NCBI GenBank assembly: GCA_023475025.1
Contig: JAMCWB010000021.1
Span: 1-64,000 of the forward strand
Direction: 5' to 3'
DNA: 64,000 nt
Source of the DNA: Gammaproteobacteria bacterium
GTDB lineage: Bacteria; Pseudomonadota; Gammaproteobacteria; Pseudomonadales; Pseudomonadaceae
Below, one piece after another: positions 2,677-12,156 of the stretch. The translations under genes were made by a program, and so were the position numbers. Under the pieces are notes generated by a model. It saw nothing but the letters and a program-made list of their open reading frames with translations. It did no database searches and was not told where the DNA came from. Positions within the stretch are counted from its first letter, which is position 1; every line of letters begins with the position of its first letter.

Positions 2677-2802
2677 GGGCCGGTTCCTGACAATAAGTGT
2701 GGGCGCAGTATAACCCATTGACCCGACCCGACCGCTTGCCGCTGTCACGGATTGCCTACTTACAGAATCAAGCAATACGGGTCAAGTAGGTATTGTGCGA
2801 TA

Positions 2803-2908
2803 CGGCATTGCCGGCCATCTGGGCCAGACACGCTGCAAGCCATCCATGGGGCTCGACGATAGCCATCCATGGCTATCGACGGTCTGGCCCAAATGGCCGG
2901 CAATGCCG
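2803..2908 (+). repeat. Structured intergenic repeat, copy 1 (forward)
   Basis: An outer stem of about 27 bp is formed by 2803-2829 and 2882-2908. Inside lies a core with GACACGCTGCAAG (2827-2839), a small hairpin around the loop ATCCAT, the linker CTCGA, and a second perfect hairpin at 2857-2878 (stem CGATAGCC/GGCTATCG, loop ATCCAT), then GACGGTC. The copy sits between the divergent yaeQ and CoA-transferase genes. The same core occurs at 4732-4829, 4859-4970 and 10885-10994 with different outer-stem sequences. Confidence 0.9.
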
Positions 2909-2967
2909 CTTATACTATTGAAGTTTTGATCGGCATCTTGTTAAACCCATTCAACCAGCGAGCTCCT

Positions 2968-4161
2968 ATGTCCGAACGCCCCCTGGCCGGCCTTAAAGTG
3001 ATTGAACTCGGCACCCTGATTGCCGGCCCCTTTGCTGCGCGCATCTGCGCTGAATTCGGTGCCGAGGTGATCAAGGTGGAAGCGCCCAACGGGGGTGATC
3101 CGCTGCGCAAATGGCGCAAAGTCTATGAAGGCACCTCGCTGTGGTGGTTCGTGCAGGCGCGCAACAAGCAATCACTGACGCTGAACCTGAAAAGCCCCGA
3201 TGGCATCCAGATTCTCAAGCAATTGCTGGCTGAAGCTGACATCCTGATCGAGAACTTCCGTCCCGGCACACTGGAAAAGCTCGGCCTCGGCTGGGACGTG
3301 CTGCACGCGCTCAACCCCGGCCTGGTGATGGTGCGCCTGTCCGGCTTCGGCCAGAGCGGCCCGCTGAAAGATCAGCCCGGCTTTGGCGCGGTCGGTGAAT
3401 CCATGGGTGGGCTGCGTTACATCACCGGCTTTGCCGATCGCCCGCCGGTGCGCACCGGTATCTCCATCGGTGACTCCATCGCCGCCCTGTTTGGCGTGAT
3501 TGGCGCCTTGATGGCCCTGCGCGAGCGGGAAGTGCGCGGCGGTAAAGGGCAAATCGTCGATGTCGCCCTCTATGAAGCGGTGTTCGCCATGATGGAAAGC
3601 ATGGTGCCGGAGTTTGACGTCATGGGCTTTGTGCGCGAGCGCAGTGGCAACATCATGCCCGGCATCACCCCCTCATCGATTCACACCTGCGCCGACGGTC
3701 AGGCGGTACAGATTGGTGCCAACGGTGATGCCATCTTCCAGCGTTTTATGCGCGCCATTGGCCGCGCTGACCTGGCCGACGACCCGCAATTGGCCGATAA
3801 CGCCGGTCGCGATGCCCGCCGCGATGAGCTCTATCAGATCATTGATGCCTGGGCCGCCAGCCTGCCGCTGGATGAGGCGCTGGCCTTACTGAATGCCGCT
3901 GAGGTGCCGGCCAGCCGGATTTATTCCGTTGCGGACATGTTCCGTGACCCGCAGTTTCTGGCCCGTGACATGCTGATCGAGGATAAGCTGCCCGACGGCA
4001 AGCCCTTCAAGATGCCCGGCATCGTCCCCAAACTCTCCGCCACGCCCGGCGGCAGCGACTGGGTTGGCCCGGCTCTGGGTGAACACACCGACGCCCTGCT
4101 GGCACAACTGGGCTATAGCCCTGAGCAGATTGCCGACCTGCGCCAGCAGGGTGTGGTATAG
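2968..4161 (+). CDS. CaiB/BaiF (class III) CoA-transferase
   Basis: A 397-residue family III CoA-transferase, a group that moves CoA between carboxylic acids through an aspartyl-CoA thioester. The N-terminal LIAGPFAARICAEFGAEVIKVE segment and ADILIENFRPGTLEKLG are family signatures. The catalytic Asp is in SIGDS at residue 169, the same number as in formyl-CoA transferase. The C-terminal GEHTDALLAQLGYS is also typical. Substrates cannot be inferred. Start chosen at MSERPLAGLK, which matches family N-termini; the frame is open 33 codons upstream. It stands alone, 60 bp downstream of repeat copy 1, which ends 2 bases before a TATACT -10-like hexamer. Confidence 0.92.
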   Translation: MSERPLAGLKVIELGTLIAGPFAARICAEFGAEVIKVEAPNGGDPLRKWRKVYEGTSLWWFVQARNKQSLTLNLKSPDGIQILKQLLAEADILIENFRPGTLEKLGLGWDVLHALNPGLVMVRLSGFGQSGPLKDQPGFGAVGESMGGLRYITGFADRPPVRTGISIGDSIAALFGVIGALMALREREVRGGKGQIVDVALYEAVFAMMESMVPEFDVMGFVRERSGNIMPGITPSSIHTCADGQAVQIGANGDAIFQRFMRAIGRADLADDPQLADNAGRDARRDELYQIIDAWAASLPLDEALALLNAAEVPASRIYSVADMFRDPQFLARDMLIEDKLPDGKPFKMPGIVPKLSATPGGSDWVGPALGEHTDALLAQLGYSPEQIADLRQQGVV

Positions 4162-4224
4162 CGCCTCAGCGCCAACCGGTTGCCCAGCAGCGGCTGCGCA
4201 ACCGCTGACTGATTAAACACCTGA

Positions 4225-4647
4225 TCAGTAACTCAGCCCCAGCTTGCGAAACACAAAGCCCAGCAACCAGGCCGGCCCGACCAGAAGGAACTGGATATCC
4301 TTGAAGAACGACGGCTTCTTGCCCTCCACCTGATGCCCGTAGAACTGCCCGATCCAGGCCAGCACAAAAATCGCCACCGAAGGCCAGAACACATAGGGCA
4401 TCACGCTCAAAATCAGCAGCATGACCAATCCCAGCACCAGCATGGCGGCACCAATGCGCCAGGACAGGCTGAAGTAGAACACCATCGACAAGGCCAGAAC
4501 CCCCACCGCCGCCCAAGGGTGCAACGCCCACAACATACCCAGCACGCTGAAGGTAATAAGCGGCACACAAATCCAGTGCACCAGTTTATTCACCGGGTTC
4601 TGATGGCTTTCGCCGTAATCCGCAAACCATTGATCAATCGTTTTCAT
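4225..4647 (-). CDS. DUF962/Mpo1-like small membrane protein
   Basis: A 140-residue protein beginning MKTIDQWFADYGESHQNPVN. The N-terminal NPVNKLVHWICVP motif and about four hydrophobic helices identify the DUF962 family, which includes yeast Mpo1, an Fe(II) dioxygenase of 2-hydroxy fatty acid breakdown. The conserved His residues (HQNPVN and HW) are present. Bacterial members are poorly characterised, so a lipid alpha-oxidation role is only a family-based guess. Monocistronic, divergent from thiD. Confidence 0.85.
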   Translation of the reverse strand: MKTIDQWFADYGESHQNPVNKLVHWICVPLITFSVLGMLWALHPWAAVGVLALSMVFYFSLSWRIGAAMLVLGLVMLLILSVMPYVFWPSVAIFVLAWIGQFYGHQVEGKKPSFFKDIQFLLVGPAWLLGFVFRKLGLSY

Positions 4648-4731
4648 GGCTACTCCTGCCTTCGCTTGTTGTTATTTTGACCGGGGAAAAGATACCTTGG
4701 TTTCTTTGCGGATGCACCCTATCAGGAGCGA

Positions 4732-4829
4732 CCTGTGTGCATGGCCTATGTGGACCGTCCATGACCAGGGACGGTCATGGACGAGCATACATGTACTTGC
4801 GGCGTGTCCACAGAGGCAGTGCACGGAGG
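4732..4829 (-). repeat. Structured intergenic repeat, copy 2 (reverse)
   Basis: The outer stem pairs 4732-4755 with 4806-4829 (about 19 of 24 positions). The core on the minus strand runs GACACGCCGCAAG, a small hairpin around TACATGTA, then a perfect 11-bp hairpin at 4756-4783 (GTCCATGACC/GGTCATGGAC plus a closing C-G pair, minus-strand loop GTCCCT) and GGTC. Copies 2 and 3 lie 29 bp apart in opposite orientation. Together they fill most of the 417-bp gap between the DUF962 gene and thiD. Confidence 0.85.
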
Positions 4830-4858
4830 GCGCTGACGCCGGTACAGGACGTGTGCCT

Positions 4859-4970
4859 GGCGGCATTGCCCATCCCCGGATCCCAGACACGCTACGAGCC
4901 ATCCCTGGGGCTCGACGATGCACATCCATGTGCATCGACGGTCTGGAATCCGGGGATGCGCAACACCGCC
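4859..4970 (+). repeat. Structured intergenic repeat, copy 3 (forward)
   Basis: The outer stem of about 30 bp is formed by 4859-4888 and 4941-4970, with a few mismatches. The core has GACACGCTACGAG, a hairpin AGCC/GGCT around a loop containing ATCCCT, linker CTCGA, and a perfect hairpin at 4916-4937 (CGATGCAC/GTGCATCG, loop ATCCAT). Compared with copy 1, three consecutive stem pairs differ but all remain paired. Confidence 0.9.
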
Positions 4971-5064
4971 TACGTAATCCTGCGTTGCTGCGCGAAAAAA
5001 CTGACAAACCCGACAACACATCCACCTCTGCCGGGATGCCCTCAGCAGTGGTAAACTCTCGGCC

Positions 5065-5865
5065 ATGAAAACACTCGCCCCCAATCGCCCCGTCGTGCTC
5101 TGCCTGTCCGGGCATGACCCCAGTGGTGGTGCCGGCCTGCAAGCCGACATCGAAGCCCTGCTCGCCCAACATTGCCATGCGGCCCCGACCGTCACCGCAC
5201 TGACCGTGCAAGACACCGTCGATGTCAGCGACTTTCGCGTACTTGATCGCGACTGGGTGCTGGCCCAGGCCAACAAGGTTATCAGTGACCTGCCCGTCGC
5301 CGCCGTCAAGCTCGGCATGCTCGGCTCGGTCGAGATGGTCGACACCGTACTCGAACTGATGCAACGCCTGCCCGGCATACCCCTGGTCTGTGACCCGGTA
5401 CTGCGCGCCGGTGGTGGTGGCTCACTGGGCAAGGATGATGTCGGCTATGCCATGCGCGAACGCCTGTTCCCGGTCGCCGCCATCGCCACCCCCAACCTGC
5501 CCGAAGCACGCATCCTCGCCGAACTGCCCGAGGGCAGCGCAGATGCGTGCGCCGAGCGCCTGCTGCCGCACATCGAACACCTGCTGATCACCGGCGGTCA
5601 TGGTGATGAAGCCGAGATCCATAACCGCCTGTATACCCGCAGCGGCGAGCGTCATGACTTCACCTGTCCGCGCCTGCCCGGCAGCTATCACGGCTCCGGC
5701 TGCACCCTGGCCAGCGCGCTGGCCGGTCGCCTGGCGCTGGGGGAAGGCCTGGTCAGCGCGGTACGCAGTGCACTGGATTACACCTGGCGCACCCTGCGTG
5801 ATGCCGAACAGCCCGGCCAGGGCCAGTATGTACCGCGCCGCCTGCCACTGGACTTTGGCGCATGA
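5065..5865 (+). CDS. thiD: Hydroxymethylpyrimidine/phosphomethylpyrimidine kinase
   Basis: ThiD phosphorylates HMP and then HMP-P to HMP-PP, the pyrimidine half of thiamine phosphate. The 266-residue ribokinase-fold protein has the diagnostic [17 protein letters not shown] near the N-terminus, [13 protein letters not shown] in the middle and the anion-hole motif [15 protein letters not shown] near 210. It overlaps thiE by 4 bases, so the two are translationally coupled. I looked for a TPP riboswitch in the 94 bp before the start and saw no thi-box. Confidence 0.96.
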
Positions 5866-6497
5866 GCCAGCCCTTGCGCGGCCTCTATGCCATCACCGAC
5901 AGCCAGTTACTGGCGGGCGGCAAGCTGCTGCCCTACGTGGATGCCGCGCTGGCCGGTGGTGCGCGCCTGCTGCAATACCGCGACAAGTCCGCTGATGCTG
6001 GCAAACGCCTCGAAGAAGCCACCGAATTACAGCGCCTGTGCCGATACTATGGCGCCGGACTGATCATCAATGATGACCTGGCCCTGGCAGCCGAACTCGG
6101 CGTTGGCCTGCATCTGGGCCGTGAGGATGGTTCTCTGCGTGAAGCCCGCCAGCAACTGGGCCGTGAAGCCATTATTGGCGCCACCTGTCACGCCAGCCTG
6201 GAATTTGCCGAACAGGCCGCTGCGGAACAAGCCAGCTATCTGGCCTTCGGGCGCTTTTTCCAGTCGGTGACCAAACCCGGCGCACCTGCTGCCACGCCGG
6301 TATTGCTGGAAACCGCCCACAAACGCTTCAGCCTGCCGCTGGTAGCCATTGGCGGCGTCAGCACGCACAATGCACCGCAACTGATCAGTGCCGGCGCCAA
6401 CCTGCTGGCCGTCGTCCACGGCCTTTTTGGTGCCAGCTCAACCGAAGAAGTAGAACGCCGCGCGCGGCATTTCAACGAACTCTTTCAAAGCTTGTGA
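5862..6497 (+). CDS. thiE: Thiamine-phosphate synthase
   Basis: ThiE joins HMP-PP and thiazole phosphate to make thiamine phosphate. The 211-residue TIM-barrel protein shows [10 protein letters not shown] at the start, [10 protein letters not shown] at 33-42, [16 protein letters not shown], and the phosphate-binding [19 protein letters not shown] near the end. Start at the ATG that overlaps the thiD stop; stop lies 8 bases before the hemL ATG. Confidence 0.96.
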
Positions 6498-6505
6498 GAC
6501 ACCCT

Positions 6506-7786
6506 ATGTCACGTTCCGAACAACTCTTCGCCGCCGCCCAGCAACACATCCCCGGTGGCGTCAATTCACCCGTGCGCGCCTTCAAGAGCGTCGGCGGCAC
6601 CCCTCTGTTCTTCAAACATGCCGCCGGTGCCTATGTCACTGATGAGGACGACCGCCAGTATGTCGACTACGTCGGCTCCTGGGGCCCGATGATCCTCGGC
6701 CACAGCCACCCGGACGTACTCGCGGCCGTACGCGCGCAGCTCGAGCATGGCCTGTCCTACGGCGCGCCGACCGAGCTGGAAACTGTCATGGCCAACCGGG
6801 TCTGTGAGCTTGTGCCGTCCATGGACATGGTGCGCATGGTCAGCTCCGGCACCGAGGCCACCATGAGCACCATCCGTCTGGCCCGGGGTTATACCGGCCG
6901 CGATAGCATCATCAAGTTTGAAGGCAACTACCACGGCCATTCCGACAGCCTGCTGGTCAAGGCCGGTTCTGGTGCCCTGACCCTGGGCGTGCCCAACTCC
7001 CCCGGCGTACCGGCGGACTTTGCCAAACACACCCTGACGCTGCCCTATAACGACCTGGCTGCCGTGGAAAAAACCCTGCAGGACGTCGGTGACCAGGTCG
7101 CTTGCATCATCATCGAGCCGGTTGCCGGCAATATGAACTGTATCCCGCCGGTTGAGGGCTTTCTCAGCGGCCTGCGTACGCTCTGCGATGCCCATGGTGT
7201 GGTGCTGATCTTTGATGAGGTGATGACCGGTTTTCGTGTCGCCCTCGGTGGCGCTCAGGCGTATTACGGCGTCAACCCCGACCTGACCACCTTCGGCAAG
7301 ATCATCGGCGGCGGCATGCCGGTCGGCTGTTTCGGTGGCAAGCGCGCCATCATGGAGCATATCGCGCCCCTTGGTCCGGTCTACCAGGCCGGCACCCTGT
7401 CCGGCAACCCACTGGCCATGGCTGCCGGCATCACCACCTTGAAGCTGCTCAGCCAGCCAGGCTTTCACCAGCGCCTGAGCGACTACACCAGTCGCATGCT
7501 CAGCGGATTGCAGGAACGTGCCGATGCCGCTGGTATCCCCTTCACCACCAGCCAGGCCGGCGGCATGTTTGGCCTGTTCTTTACCGAGGCCAAAGAAGTC
7601 ACCACCTTTGATGGCGTGATGGCTTGCGATGTGGAACGCTTCAAGCGCTTCTTCCACGCCATGCTGTCTGGTGGCGTGTATCTCGCACCCAGTGCCTTTG
7701 AAGCCGGTTTCACCTCGATTGCCCATGGCGACAAGGAACTGGAGCTGACGCTGAACGCCGCCGAACAGGCCTTCGCCCAACTATGA
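6506..7786 (+). CDS. hemL: Glutamate-1-semialdehyde 2,1-aminomutase
   Basis: HemL converts glutamate-1-semialdehyde to 5-aminolevulinate, the committed precursor of haem in the C5 pathway. The 426-residue class III aminotransferase has the N-terminal [11 protein letters not shown], the PLP-aspartate segment [11 protein letters not shown], and the Schiff-base lysine in [14 protein letters not shown]. Start chosen at ATG 6506 (MSRSEQLF); a GTG at 6494 in frame overlaps thiE but homologues begin at MSRSE. The stop overlaps the next start by 4 bases. Confidence 0.97.
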
Positions 7787-8439
7787 TCGCCTTGAGTTAC
7801 TTGCTGTTGGCCGCCGCTGCGAGCTTTTTCTGCTTCTGGCTGTGGCCACGCCGCCAGCGCTGCCGAGCCGGCGCGCGCGGCGCTATCACTGCCACCCTGG
7901 TCGCCCTGGTGCTGGTTATCCTCAGCAGCGGGCTGCATGTGCTGGGCCTGGCTGGGGTAAGTAATGATGGCATCGAGCACAGTCAGCGTATTATCGGCCT
8001 GTCTGCCCAGGTAATGACATTGCCGCTGTTCGGCCTGGCCTGCTTTTACCTGGCGCACAACCTGCAATGGTCACCCCCCACCTGGGCCAAGATCATCCTT
8101 GGCCTGATGGCATTTTTCGAGCTGTCACGCTATCTGGAACAGCAGATCGCCTATCAATGGCTGGTCAACCTGATCGGTATCGCTGCCCTGCTGGCCGCCT
8201 GCGTGATCAGCTGGCCCAGGCAGCGGCTGGTCAGCCTGCTGGGCGCCGTCACCGTTGTCAGCGTGCTGCTGCCCGCCTGGTTTGCCAATCAGGTACCGCT
8301 CAGCGCGCTGATGGATGCCAGCGCCCACGCCAGCTGGCTGCTACCGGGCCTGGCTGCCCTTAGCCTGATGGTTGGCCTGCTCGCCGAACAGGCGCACAAT
8401 AGGGAAAGTACCCTTGCCGCGGACAACCGCGAGGAATAA
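7783..8439 (+). CDS. Uncharacterised multi-pass inner-membrane protein
   Basis: A 218-residue protein I do not recognise. It begins with a hydrophobic helix followed by a basic turn ([14 protein letters not shown], consistent with N-out or a positive-inside loop) and contains about six to seven predicted membrane helices, ending in a short charged tail. The ATGA overlap with hemL and the 2-base gap to the next gene put it in the thiD-thiE-hemL operon. No catalytic motif is visible. Confidence 0.8.
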
Positions 8440-8441
8440 GC

Positions 8442-8990
8442 ATGGCCAGCTTCACGCGTCACCCACTTGCCCGCCTGACTGCCGCACTGCTGCTGTCGCT
8501 GCCCGCCTGGCTGGCTGCGCAGACGGGTAACCCATTGCTGATCAGCGCGGAGGATCGCTGCGGTTTCGAGCGGGTCGATGACAACAGCCTGCCGCTGGCC
8601 ATCGAACGCTGCCTGGAAGCCGCCGAAGACGGCGACAGTCAGGCCCAGTTCGAGCTGGGCGACCTCTACTATCAAGGGGATCGGGTAACGCAGGATTACG
8701 CCCAGGCCCTCGACTGGCTGGAAGAGGCCTCATTGCAGGGCCACCCCACCGCCCAGTACCGTCTGGGCATGATGCACTTTCAGGGTGAGGGCGTTGATCG
8801 CAACCTGACTCAGGCCTACATCATCCTGAAAATGTCTGCCGTCAACGGTGAAGATGCCGCCATGGACGCCAGCGACCGCATTGCCCTGCAAATGAACCAG
8901 GAAGAACTGCAGGTAGCGACGCAACTGCTCAGCACCCTGTTTCGCAATTACCTCGAGCAACTGCGCGAAGAGCAGCTGCAAGGCCGCTAG
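8442..8990 (+). CDS. Secreted Sel1-repeat protein
   Basis: A 182-residue protein with an N-terminal signal peptide (hydrophobic ALLLSLPAWLAAQ) followed by at least two Sel1-type TPR repeats: AQFELGDLYYQGDRVTQDYA and AQYRLGMMHFQGEGVDRNLT. Such solenoids mediate protein-protein contacts, here presumably in the periplasm. It is the last gene of the thiD operon. Binding partner unknown. Confidence 0.88.
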   Translation: MASFTRHPLARLTAALLLSLPAWLAAQTGNPLLISAEDRCGFERVDDNSLPLAIERCLEAAEDGDSQAQFELGDLYYQGDRVTQDYAQALDWLEEASLQGHPTAQYRLGMMHFQGEGVDRNLTQAYIILKMSAVNGEDAAMDASDRIALQMNQEELQVATQLLSTLFRNYLEQLREEQLQGR

Positions 8991-9022
8991 GCACAGCGCC
9001 GGAGAAAGCTGAGAGAAAAACC

Positions 9023-9349
9023 TCAGGTTGGTAGCGGCGGCCCCGGAAAGGTCATGATATTACTGCCGCCCTTGGCCTCGCTGACCTTGGGCGCACCCGC
9101 GCGCTCCACCTCATCAATACGCACAATCGCATGTACCGGAATAAAGCTGCGCTTGACACCCTCGAACTGGCTTTTCAGCTTCTCCTCACCCGGATCCACC
9201 AGCATCTGCGACCGCTCGCCAAACACCAGCTCCTCGATTTCCATAAAGCCCCACAGCTCGCTCTGGTAGATCTGCCGGGCGTAAAGCTCGAAGACTTCAC
9301 CCTGATTGAGAAAAATAACCCGAAAGATCGGCTGCCTGTCACCACTCAT
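9023..9349 (-). CDS. DUF1820 family protein
   Basis: A 108-residue protein beginning MSGDRQPIFRVIFLNQGEVFELYARQ, with FMEIEELVFGE and FIPVHAIVRIDEVERAG. These are signatures of DUF1820, a short cytosolic family found in Pseudomonas near miaB. Function unknown. The C-terminus is Gly/Pro-rich (NIMTFPGPPLP). Start chosen at the conserved MSGD; the frame is open 15 codons upstream. Convergent with the Sel1 gene and divergent from miaB. Confidence 0.88.
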   Translation of the reverse strand: MSGDRQPIFRVIFLNQGEVFELYARQIYQSELWGFMEIEELVFGERSQMLVDPGEEKLKSQFEGVKRSFIPVHAIVRIDEVERAGAPKVSEAKGGSNIMTFPGPPLPT

Positions 9350-9443
9350 GATGCGCTCATTGACTGAAAATGAAGGGCGCGAAGCATAGCACACGCCAAC
9401 ACCGACGCAGAATAGCGACCGACCGCTGGTAGCGCCGCAGGCA

Positions 9444-9472
9444 TAACAAAGGTCCCGTCATCCGTGTATAAT
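9444..9472 (+). promoter_or_regulatory. Candidate miaB promoter
   Basis: A perfect -10 hexamer TATAAT (9467-9472) lies 32 bases before the miaB ATG. The hexamer 17 bases upstream (TAACAA, 9444-9449) is a weak -35 match. Only the -10 box is convincing. Confidence 0.5.
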
Positions 9473-9504
9473 CGCGCCTTTTCAGCAAGGTTACGTCTGA
9501 CGCC

Positions 9505-10833
9505 ATGGCCAAGAAACTCTTTATCCAGACCCACGGTTGCCAAATGAACGAGTATGACAGCTCGCGCATGGCCGACCTGCTCGGCGAGCATCAGGCAATG
9601 GAACTGACCGACCAGCCCGACCAGGCCGATATCATCCTGCTCAACACCTGCTCGATTCGGGAAAAAGCCCAGGAGAAAGTCTTCTCCGAGCTCGGCCGCT
9701 GGCGCCCGCTGAAAGAAAAGAACCCCGACCTGATCATTGGTGTCGGTGGCTGTGTCGCCAGCCAGGAAGGCAGCGCCATTCGCGAGCGTGCCAGCTATGT
9801 TGATGTCGTCTTCGGCCCGCAAACCCTGCATCGCCTGCCGGAAATGATCGACGCCGCACGCACCACCAAGACCGCCCAGGTTGATGTCTCCTTCCCGGAG
9901 ATCGAGAAATTCGACCGCCTGCCAGAGCCACGCATCGACGGCCCCACCGCCTTCGTCTCCATCATGGAAGGCTGCAGCAAATACTGCAGCTTCTGCGTCG
10001 TGCCCTACACCCGCGGCGAAGAAGTCAGCCGCCCCTTCGACGACGTCCTCGCCGAAGTTATCCACCTGGCGGAAAACGGCGTCCGTGAAGTAACCTTGCT
10101 CGGCCAGAACGTCAACGGCTACCGCGGCCAGACCCACGACGGCAGCATCGCCGACCTGGCCGACCTGATCCGCGTCATTGCCGCCATCGACGGCATTGAT
10201 CGCATCCGTTACACCACCAGCCACCCGCTGGAATTTTCCGACAGCCTGATCCAGGCCCACGCCGAAGTACCGGAACTGGTCAAATACCTGCACCTGCCGG
10301 TGCAGTCCGGCTCCGACCGCGTACTGGCCGGCATGAAGCGCAACCACACCGCGCTGGAATACAAATCACGCATCCGCAAACTGCGCGCCGCGGTACCGGA
10401 TATCATCATCAGCTCCGACTTCATCATCGGCTTCCCCGGCGAAACCGAGCGCGACTTCGAACAAACCATGAAGCTGGTCGAAGAGATCGGCTTCGACTTC
10501 TCCTACTCGTTCATCTACAGCTCACGCCCGGGCACCCCGGCCGCCGACCTGCCCGACGACACCCCTGCCGAGGTGAAAAAGCAGCGCCTGCAGATCCTGC
10601 AAAACCGCCTCAACCAGCAGGGTTTCGAGAACAACCGCCGCATGGTCGGCACCACCCAGCGCATCCTGGTCAGCGACTACTCGAAAAAAGACCCCGGCAT
10701 GCTGCAAGGCCGCACCGAGCACAACCGCGTGGTCAACTTCCGCTGCGACAACCCGGCGCTGATTGGCCAGTTTGTCGATGTCGAGATTATTGAAGCGCTG
10801 CCGCATTCGCTGCGCGGCGCCTTGTTACATTAG
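9505..10833 (+). CDS. miaB: tRNA-2-methylthio-N6-isopentenyladenosine synthase
   Basis: MiaB adds a methylthio group to i6A37 of tRNAs reading codons that start with U. The 442-residue protein has the N-terminal UPF0004 domain ([12 protein letters not shown]), cluster-binding cysteines in [10 protein letters not shown] and GGCVASQ, the radical-SAM triad CSKYCSFC at about residues 157-164, and a C-terminal TRAM domain. Monocistronic; the next spacer holds repeat copy 4. Confidence 0.97.
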
Positions 10834-10884
10834 GGTTGTCACGATTGATTCTGCTTGTTCCCGGTAATTTGCACGGACTACCGG

Positions 10885-10994
10885 GAGCAGTATGGGTCGG
10901 GCAGCTCTGGACCGTCCGTGACCAGGGACGGTCACGGACGAGCTTACAGGGACGTACTTGCAGCGTGTCCAGAGATGCCCGGCCCATACTGCTC
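10885..10994 (-). repeat. Structured intergenic repeat, copy 4 (reverse)
   Basis: The outer stem of 28 bp pairs 10885-10912 with 10967-10994 (only a few non-Watson-Crick positions). The core holds a perfect 11-bp hairpin at 10913-10940 (GTCCGTGACC/GGTCACGGAC plus closing pair), then on the minus strand GACACGCTGCAAG and a small hairpin around GTCCCT. Relative to copy 2, an A-T pair has become G-C in the 11-bp stem. It fills much of the 285 bp between miaB and phoH. Confidence 0.9.
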
Positions 10995-11043
10995 AAGCAC
11001 ACGACTTCATCCCAACCGACAAAAAACCAGACGAAGCTGATTG

Positions 11044-11118: not shown

Positions 11119-12156
11119 TTGAACGCACCCCTGCATATACATCGCTTCACCATTGAACCCGTCGACTCGCGGCGCTTCGCGAGCCTGTGCGGCCAGTTCA
11201 ACGAACACCTACAACTCATCGAGCAACGGCTCGGCATCGAAGTGCGCAACCGCGGCAACGAATTCGAACTGATCGGCGAACAGGCCCTGACCCGCTCCGC
11301 CGAAGCCGTCCTGCGCCAGCTGTACCGCGAAACCCGCGACAACGGCGAACTGACGCCCGACACCGTCCACCTGTTCCTGCAGGAATCCGGACTGGAAAGC
11401 CTCAGCGAAGCGCTTAACGACAGCAGCAGCCACAAGCCCGTCGTCCTGCGCACCCGCAAGATGACCATCCAGCCGCGCGGCCCCAACCAACAGGCCTACG
11501 TACGCTCGATCCTGGATCACGATATCAACTTCGGTATCGGCCCGGCCGGCACCGGCAAGACCTATCTGGCCGTTGCCTGCGCCGTTGATGCCCTGGAACG
11601 GGAACAGGTACGGCGCATCCTGCTGGTCCGCCCCGCCGTTGAAGCCGGCGAAAAGCTGGGCTTCCTGCCCGGCGACCTGGCACAGAAAATCGACCCCTAC
11701 CTGCGCCCGTTGTACGACGCCCTGTATGAAATGCTCGGCTTTGAACAGGTTGCCAAGCTCATTGAAAAACAGGTCATCGAAGTTGCCCCGCTGGCCTACA
11801 TGCGCGGCCGCACCCTGAACAACAGCTTCATTATTCTTGATGAAAGCCAGAATACCACCCTGGAACAGATGAAAATGTTCCTGACACGTATCGGCTTCGG
11901 TTCCACCGCGGTAATCACCGGCGACACCACCCAGGTCGACCTGCCACGTGGCACCCGCTCCGGACTGATTCACGTCACCGAAGTCCTCAAGGGTGTCAAA
12001 GGTATCGGCTTTACCGAGTTCAAATCCAAAGACGTCGTGCGCCACCCCCTGGTGCAACGCATCGTCGAAGCCTACGACCGTTTCGACCAGGCCCAGGAGC
12101 AGGCGCGCCTCGAGCGCAAGGAACGGCACAAGCCGGATGACAGCCATGACGCTTGA
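11119..12156 (+). CDS. phoH: PhoH-like ATPase
   Basis: A 345-residue PhoH/YbeZ-type P-loop ATPase, usually linked with YbeY in RNA metabolism and ribosome maturation. Walker A is [11 protein letters not shown], Walker [12 protein letters not shown], followed by GDTTQVDLP. Start: homologues begin M-NAPL-HRF; the matching codon here is TTG at 11119, since no ATG is available at that position. An alternative TTG at 11041 would add 26 unconserved residues and overlap the heptad repeat. Followed by ybeY with an 11-base overlap. Confidence 0.93.

Follow-up and report, generated by a model that had tools for sequence, protein, structure and literature searches.

Four structured repeats at the locus

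The window analysed here is the whole stretch of 64,000 nucleotides (nt) at positions 1 to 64,000 of contig JAMCWB010000021.1 (assembly GCA_023475025.1, Pseudomonadaceae). It contains four copies of an intergenic repeat in which a long outer stem encloses two hairpins (Table 1). The copies had been located in an initial annotation, and all of them were recovered by repeat search, folding and a covariance model. The repeat search returned inverted arms of 27-30 nt for three copies (2803-2829/2882-2908, 4859-4888/4941-4970 and 10885-10912/10967-10994), and copy 2 (4732-4829) adopts the same fold. Our covariance model, R1, was built from 27 copies of the same genome on the strand opposite to that of the initial annotation. 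At E<=0.01 it matched only these four places in the window (78.7 to 117.3 bits), with weaker antisense echoes at two of them. On the strand first annotated, each copy folded better than 200 of 200 shuffled sequences, both as DNA (z -5.9 to -10.9) and as RNA (z -5.8 to -10.8). On the opposite strand, z ranged from -6.0 to -10.9 for DNA, where one of 200 shuffles equalled copy 2, and from -5.5 to -12.1 for RNA, where none of 200 was as good.

The order of core elements first described is present, with a core (GACACGCYRCRAG) that is a little more variable than had been claimed. Seven of the eight loops fit the proposed RTCCMT-like form; hairpin a of copy 2 has no loop. The pair changes first reported were confirmed, with three consecutive pairs of hairpin b distinguishing copies 1 and 3, and a single A-T to G-C change distinguishing copies 2 and 4. 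Two features go beyond that description, namely an outer stem that is the largest covarying part, and loops that read ANGGAN on the opposite strand.

Copies 2 and 3 form a convergent close pair with a spacing of 24 nt. Copies 1 to 3 adjoin two genes whose families include lipid-related members, a CoA-transferase family III gene and an Mpo1-like gene. The start of the called CoA-transferase frame overlaps copy 1 by 41 nt, and its domain starts further in. Copy 4 lies between a MiaB-like gene and a PhoH gene (families by Pfam), at what is called the miaB-phoH site below.

Table 1. Copies of the repeat and adjoining genes in the window
Feature	Coordinates	Strand	R1 score (bits)	Hairpin a form	Loops or remark
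Copy 1	2801..2910	-	117.3	GAGCCCC..GGCT	- strand: hairpin b ATGGAT 2865-2870; hairpin a ATGGAT 2842-2847
Copy 2	4727..4834	+	78.7	TAC..GTACTTG	AGGGAC 4767-4772; loop of hairpin a lost
Copy 3	4859..4970	-	110.1	GAGCCCC..GGCT	- strand: ATGGAT 4924-4929; AGGGAT 4901-4906
Copy 4	10884..10995	+	94.5	TTAC..GTACTTG	AGGGAC 10924-10929 and 10948-10953
CoA-transferase family III gene	2869-4161
Mpo1-like gene	4225-4647
MiaB-like gene	9505-10833
PhoH gene	11119-12156				Start approximate

Covariation and the acting strand

Across the 3.1 Mb genome, R1 identified 71 distinct sites after removal of antisense duplicates, a number that may be low since 150 of 1,944 candidates were scored. A pattern free of loop letters retrieved 30 places in this genome versus 0 in a reversed control; one of these, L026, is probably coding sequence matched by chance. 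At least 110 stretches were obtained from other genomes. We analysed 80 of them (L067-L146), of which 76 had an R1 match (all except L068, L069, L083 and L136), with 120 sites among the 80 loci.

The outer stem of the repeat is near-perfect, spans 25-30 base pairs (bp) and is nearly free in sequence. It encloses a conserved junction of the form GACCGT - hairpin b - CGAGC - hairpin a - GCGTGTC. Covariation was analysed twice, each time on a structure derived from related sequences and against shuffled and slid controls; related copies are not independent. Among the 44 modelled pairs, 28 were doubly changed with pairing kept; the shuffled mean was 17.3, none of 500 shuffles reached 28, and slid controls gave 12-17. 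Pairing stood at 96.0%, versus 80.1% in shuffled and 31-40% in slid controls. The element at one orthologous position was compared across seven Marinobacter loci; 13 of its 47 pairs were doubly changed with pairing kept, a number reached by none of 500 shuffles and by no slid control (<=4). Hairpin b is invariant in this ortholog set, so that the covariation there comes from 12 outer-stem pairs and one hairpin-a pair. Covariation at an orthologous site rules out that the copies are just recent duplications. The proposal of a structured intergenic family with signs of selection for single-strand structure is supported, with double changes in excess of both kinds of control.

Mismatches in the outer stem point to one of the two strands. 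In the 70 of 71 own copies with an ungapped outer stem (19 bp), we counted 33 G·T versus 10 A·C mismatches, with 23 copies richer in G·T and 5 richer in A·C. The corresponding counts for 93 of the 120 other copies were 80 versus 19, and 47 copies versus 5, which gives a combined ratio of 113:29. A palindrome maintained as a duplex should yield equal numbers; the excess of G·T therefore indicates that one strand is functional. Judged from these mismatches, the acting molecule is the AYGGAY single strand, opposite to the strand first annotated, and RNA or single-stranded DNA would fit alike.

Loops of the CsrA type and kinship to TwoAYGGAY

The motif CANGGANG (C-ANGGAN-G) occurs at least twice in 61 of the 71 own copies and in 108 of the 120 others, where about 0.04 occurrences are expected per strand and copy. 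On the other strand it was present once in 4 own copies and in 3 others. Most copies carry two sites, at a median spacing of 23 nt (own genome) or 24 nt (other genomes); a third site was found in 3 of the 71 own copies and in 2 of the 120 others. The hairpin-b loop contains GGA in 69 of 71 own copies and, among the others, in 101 of the 107 that could be folded by script (13 were not folded). A GGA also lies within 32 nt after hairpin b in 68 of 71 and 117 of 120 copies; hairpin a was scored through this downstream GGA, so that its fixed GGA is partly a matter of construction. Within the loops the first A is nearly fixed, and the second and sixth letters vary. R1 includes the loops, and the loop counts lean slightly that way; the patterns that first fetched the copies named no loop letters.

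According to the accessible text of PMC4005645, the high-affinity RsmE/CsrA site is an ANGGAX hexaloop that sits immediately on a stem and in which N and X may vary. By this comparison, the loops of the repeat have the form of the published high-affinity CsrA/RsmA hairpin site, and it is mainly the two free positions that vary. One CsrA gene was found in the own genome (91% complete). An RsmZ-like candidate in the same genome scored 36.1 bits versus a gathering score of 44, in a search that also rang, under the cut-off, in 8 of 14 controls.

The family had been taken as new and without assigned function, which is not borne out. RF01731, the TwoAYGGAY family, matches the same sites on the same strand, so that a wholly new family can be rejected. 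In the window, RF01731 matched 2797-2914 on the strand of copy 1 (28.2 bits, E 0.43, under the gathering score of 43). All six of its matches in the own genome at E<=10 fell on R1 sites in the same orientation, and one of the 71 copies reached the gathering score (43.7 versus 43 bits). At E<=0.01, 12 of 37 genomes of the same genus matched, all of them among the 29 R1-positive ones, compared with 0 of 14 controls; matches over the gathering score were present in three of the 37, the own genome included. Three RF01731 matches in other genomes were compared with the R1 matches listed, and all overlapped on the same strand. RF01731, RsmZ and CsrC belong to one Rfam clan, CL00106. As far as covariance models can tell, the repeats are a divergent, under-detected branch of TwoAYGGAY.

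TwoAYGGAY is listed as a candidate RNA of human gut, gammaproteobacteria and Clostridiales in the accessible text of PMC2864571 (2010). The accessible part of PMC4333381 (2014) reports two tandem GA pairs in one TwoAYGGAY stem and, on the basis of motif matches, proposes that this RNA sequesters CsrA, with validation called in progress. That is, CsrA binding had already been suggested in print. The repeats share with TwoAYGGAY two AYGGAY-like hairpin loops on one strand and a poorly conserved outer stem. The loop motif holds in a looser form, ANGGAN in both hairpins, the second letter often being G rather than Y. They differ in that nearly all copies here stay under the gathering score, and in their dozens of dispersed copies per genome, whereas the accessible parts of the TwoAYGGAY papers do not mention dispersal. 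Several GGA hairpin loops per molecule are also a feature of the RsmZ/CsrC clan, in which RF01731 is filed. Each classic member of this clan is encoded by a single gene that has a promoter and a terminator of its own. In contrast, the repeats described here are scattered, and promoter or terminator signals were not seen with them.

Dispersal and distribution

None of the 71 copies lies inside a called gene (genes were called by a simple script). The upstream gene runs on the same strand in 38 cases, on the opposite strand in 31 and is unknown in 2; for the downstream gene the numbers are 37 and 34. Nine close pairs (<400 nt) were found in the own genome, five divergent and four convergent. Among the 120 sites of the other loci, 28 of 28 close pairs were divergent with mostly unlike spacers, the 28 not all being independent (L101, L120 and L121 represent a single Marinobacter locus, and L071 is nearly identical to L128). 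Exceptions within the genus are a convergent pair in G036 and two same-direction copies in G026. The members of a pair often belong to different subtypes, as read by eye.

R1 matched 29 of 37 genomes of the genus (E<=0.001), 16 of 119 genomes in a family sample and 78 of 293 genomes from 36 of 119 genera in an order sample (both E<=1e-6). The latter two surveys undercount because of stricter filters and few candidates scored per genome. Named carriers include Halopseudomonas, Marinobacter, Haliea, Parahaliea, Microbulbifer, Zobellella and Oceanimonas, in line with the similar repeats mentioned in the initial annotation for other pseudomonads and halophilic, here marine, gammaproteobacteria. 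Four contigs (L075, L099, L115 and L138) are titled as a Klebsiella pneumoniae metagenome-assembled genome; this label is probably mistaken, and the elements on these contigs are like those found in marine gammaproteobacteria. A search of plasmid and phage collections with the core of copy 1 (2820-2892) gave no match at E<=0.01, and carriage by plasmids or phages was rejected.

At the miaB-phoH site the element is present in 4 of the 30 same-genus loci examined (37 genomes matched). In the remaining 26, the gap measures 100-211 nt and contains no model match; two of these loci (L242 and L248) have model matches elsewhere. The Marinobacter loci L077, L085, L092, L101, L120, L121 and L139 have several elements whose positions around the genes for acyl-CoA dehydrogenase and enoyl-CoA hydratase are conserved. 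Most of them also have a fatty-acid-desaturase-family gene nearby (Pfam on L101 only), presumably an alkane monooxygenase gene.

The flank 3' of the element on the AYGGAY strand (60-100 nt) is skewed towards C over G and A over T in the own and in other species. In the own genome its GC skew is -0.13 and -0.10, whichever direction the next gene has. Such a C- and A-rich flank resembles a Rho-loading sequence.

Mobility features

A transposase partner associated with repetitive extragenic palindromic (REP) elements, raised in the initial annotation, was looked for near the copies and none was seen. The own genome has two Y1_Tnp matches (C14:11121 and C21:46047). Among the R1 matches listed, none is on C14 and the only one on C21 is at 1502, so that neither gene is flanked by copies; a partner of the REP-associated tyrosine transposase (RAYT) type was rejected because both Y1_Tnp genes lie away from the copies. 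A phmmer search with the L177 queries gave no match. The open reading frame (ORF) clusters that recur near copies trace back, in our reading, to frames that overlap the elements, to the one Marinobacter locus and to families common in metabolism.

Outer inverted arms GGAARCACTGATTAA scoring >=12 were found in 11 of 71 own copies versus 16 of 560 mismatched pairs, and in 8 of 112 copies versus 4 of 889 mismatched pairs in other species. In L223, L222, L207, L215, L217, L194 and L212 such arms stand outside the element and are possibly transposon ends. An insert of about 48 nt, comprising two hairpins, whose loops carry GGA and AGGAG respectively, occupies the hairpin-b loop in L202, L206, L209, L225, L194, L228, L229 (own genome), L234 and L236, and is inverted in L226, L138 and L140. 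Both forms occur at the miaB-phoH site, plain in L233 and L235 and extended in L234 and L236. In the copy at L230:2954-3141, it is hairpin a that contains an insert, which is of another kind and about 75 nt long.

REPs are short intergenic palindromes that occur in many copies and in close inverted pairs. The repeats resemble REPs, bacterial interspersed mosaic elements (BIMEs) and REPINs in being intergenic, numerous and arranged in close inverted pairs. They differ from the REP/BIME systems with a RAYT by forming a three-way junction of about 110 nt rather than a short hairpin, and by the absence of any copy found near the Y1_Tnp genes. Miniature inverted-repeat transposable elements (MITEs) are likewise small and dispersed, and as in these no gene of its own was seen in the repeat, some copies of which have the outer arms. 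However, these arms are clear in only 11 of 71 copies, and target duplications and a matching transposase are not established.

Interpretation and alternatives

We give an even chance to the view that RNA decoys for CsrA/RsmA have here been spread by a REP/MITE-like repeat that was once mobile. The long variable outer stem presents the conserved three-way junction with its two hairpins, and each hairpin shows a C-G-closed ANGGAN hexaloop; with sites 23-24 nt apart, one CsrA dimer could bridge both. Since a promoter of their own was not seen, transcription would probably occur by read-through from neighbouring genes. A transcribed copy would then bind and sequester RsmA as RsmZ and CsrB do, and dozens of copies together might form a diffuse RsmA sink. 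The copies would have spread as non-autonomous repeats, often in close pairs, through some mobilising enzyme.

Several observations weigh against RNA decoys. Gene orientation around the copies is unbiased, so that about half of the read-through transcripts would carry the wrong strand. No excess of sigma-70-like promoters or T-run terminators over the mirrored flank was detected in 70 own and 111 other copies, and a loose -10-like pattern was rarer on the 5' side in other species (18 versus 36 of 111). Intrinsic terminators and stand-alone small RNA genes with sigma-70 promoters were rejected for want of a signal. The gathering score of RF01731 was reached in 0 of 19 loci of other genera, and one of 14 control genomes also gave a match to this model at E<=10, under the cut-off. 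A site has been lost from some copies, namely copy 2, L217 and L226, the last with an inverted insert. Eight of 37 genomes of the genus have no match, which makes the element dispensable. No transposase or recombinase family recurs near the copies among the ORF clusters listed. Furthermore, the same strand preference could arise in single-stranded DNA, and a mobile element acting as folded DNA would also explain dispersal, pairs and strand bias.

Such an element, REP/BIME- or attC-like, whose junction and loops are recognised by a strand-specific transposase or recombinase and whose likeness to CsrA sites is due to coincidence or shared descent, is a serious rival, if less probable than RNA decoys. 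Intergenic dispersal without orientation bias, copy numbers in the genus that vary patchily from 0 upward, the uniformly divergent close pairs of the 80 other loci and presence or absence at the miaB-phoH site would all be expected of it. G-T is tolerated better than A-C in DNA too, so the wobble bias fits as well. However, the lack of a recurrent transposase or recombinase among the ORF clusters listed, with both Y1_Tnp genes away from the copies, speaks against this alternative, and the Marinobacter sites are kept at orthologous places. Moreover, the free and fixed loop positions match the specificity of CsrA; it is this match, together with the clan placement, that leads us to favour CsrA binding over folded DNA. 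A palindrome without function, in which template switching during replication corrects one arm to the other and thereby mimics covariation, would account for a long near-perfect stem of nearly free sequence. We consider it very improbable, as template switching should be strand-symmetric and yield equal G-T and A-C mismatches rather than the ratio observed, and as it leaves conserved loops on variable stems unexplained.

It is also conceivable, albeit unlikely, that the repeats act in cis as elements of untranslated regions, where bound CsrA would alter the stability, termination or translation of the neighbouring transcript, perhaps aided by the Rho-loading-like flank. The absence of copies from called genes, a 3' flank that is skewed in other species too and, in the own genome, regardless of the next gene's direction, and the conserved positions around the Marinobacter acyl-CoA dehydrogenase and enoyl-CoA hydratase genes are consistent with such a role. 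But with unbiased orientation roughly one copy in two would lie antisense within the transcript, and the neighbouring genes look mixed.

Implications

We found no report of dispersed TwoAYGGAY repeats in the accessible text of the literature on TwoAYGGAY, on CsrA-linked repeats or sponges and on Marinobacter repeats, supplements (e.g. the motif notes of PMC2864571) lying outside this scope; the accessible parts of PMC5864184, PMC12306157, PMC4383904 and PMC12889724 do not report them either. Nor did the TwoAYGGAY literature, as far as accessible, contain a tested function for this RNA. The many diverged copies per genome in this branch provide strong evidence on strand, structure and loop specificity. 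If the copies bind CsrA, a dispersed repeat would feed a global post-transcriptional regulator, an unusual route for repeats to affect their host, and the copies should then be counted when CsrA networks are predicted for these genera. More tentatively, a mobile or once-mobile repeat may have dispersed CsrA-binding RNA modules over dozens of genomic sites in many marine gammaproteobacteria, where the genome-wide decoy load might buffer or reset the Csr/Rsm network. If true, gain and loss of copies would tune a global regulator.

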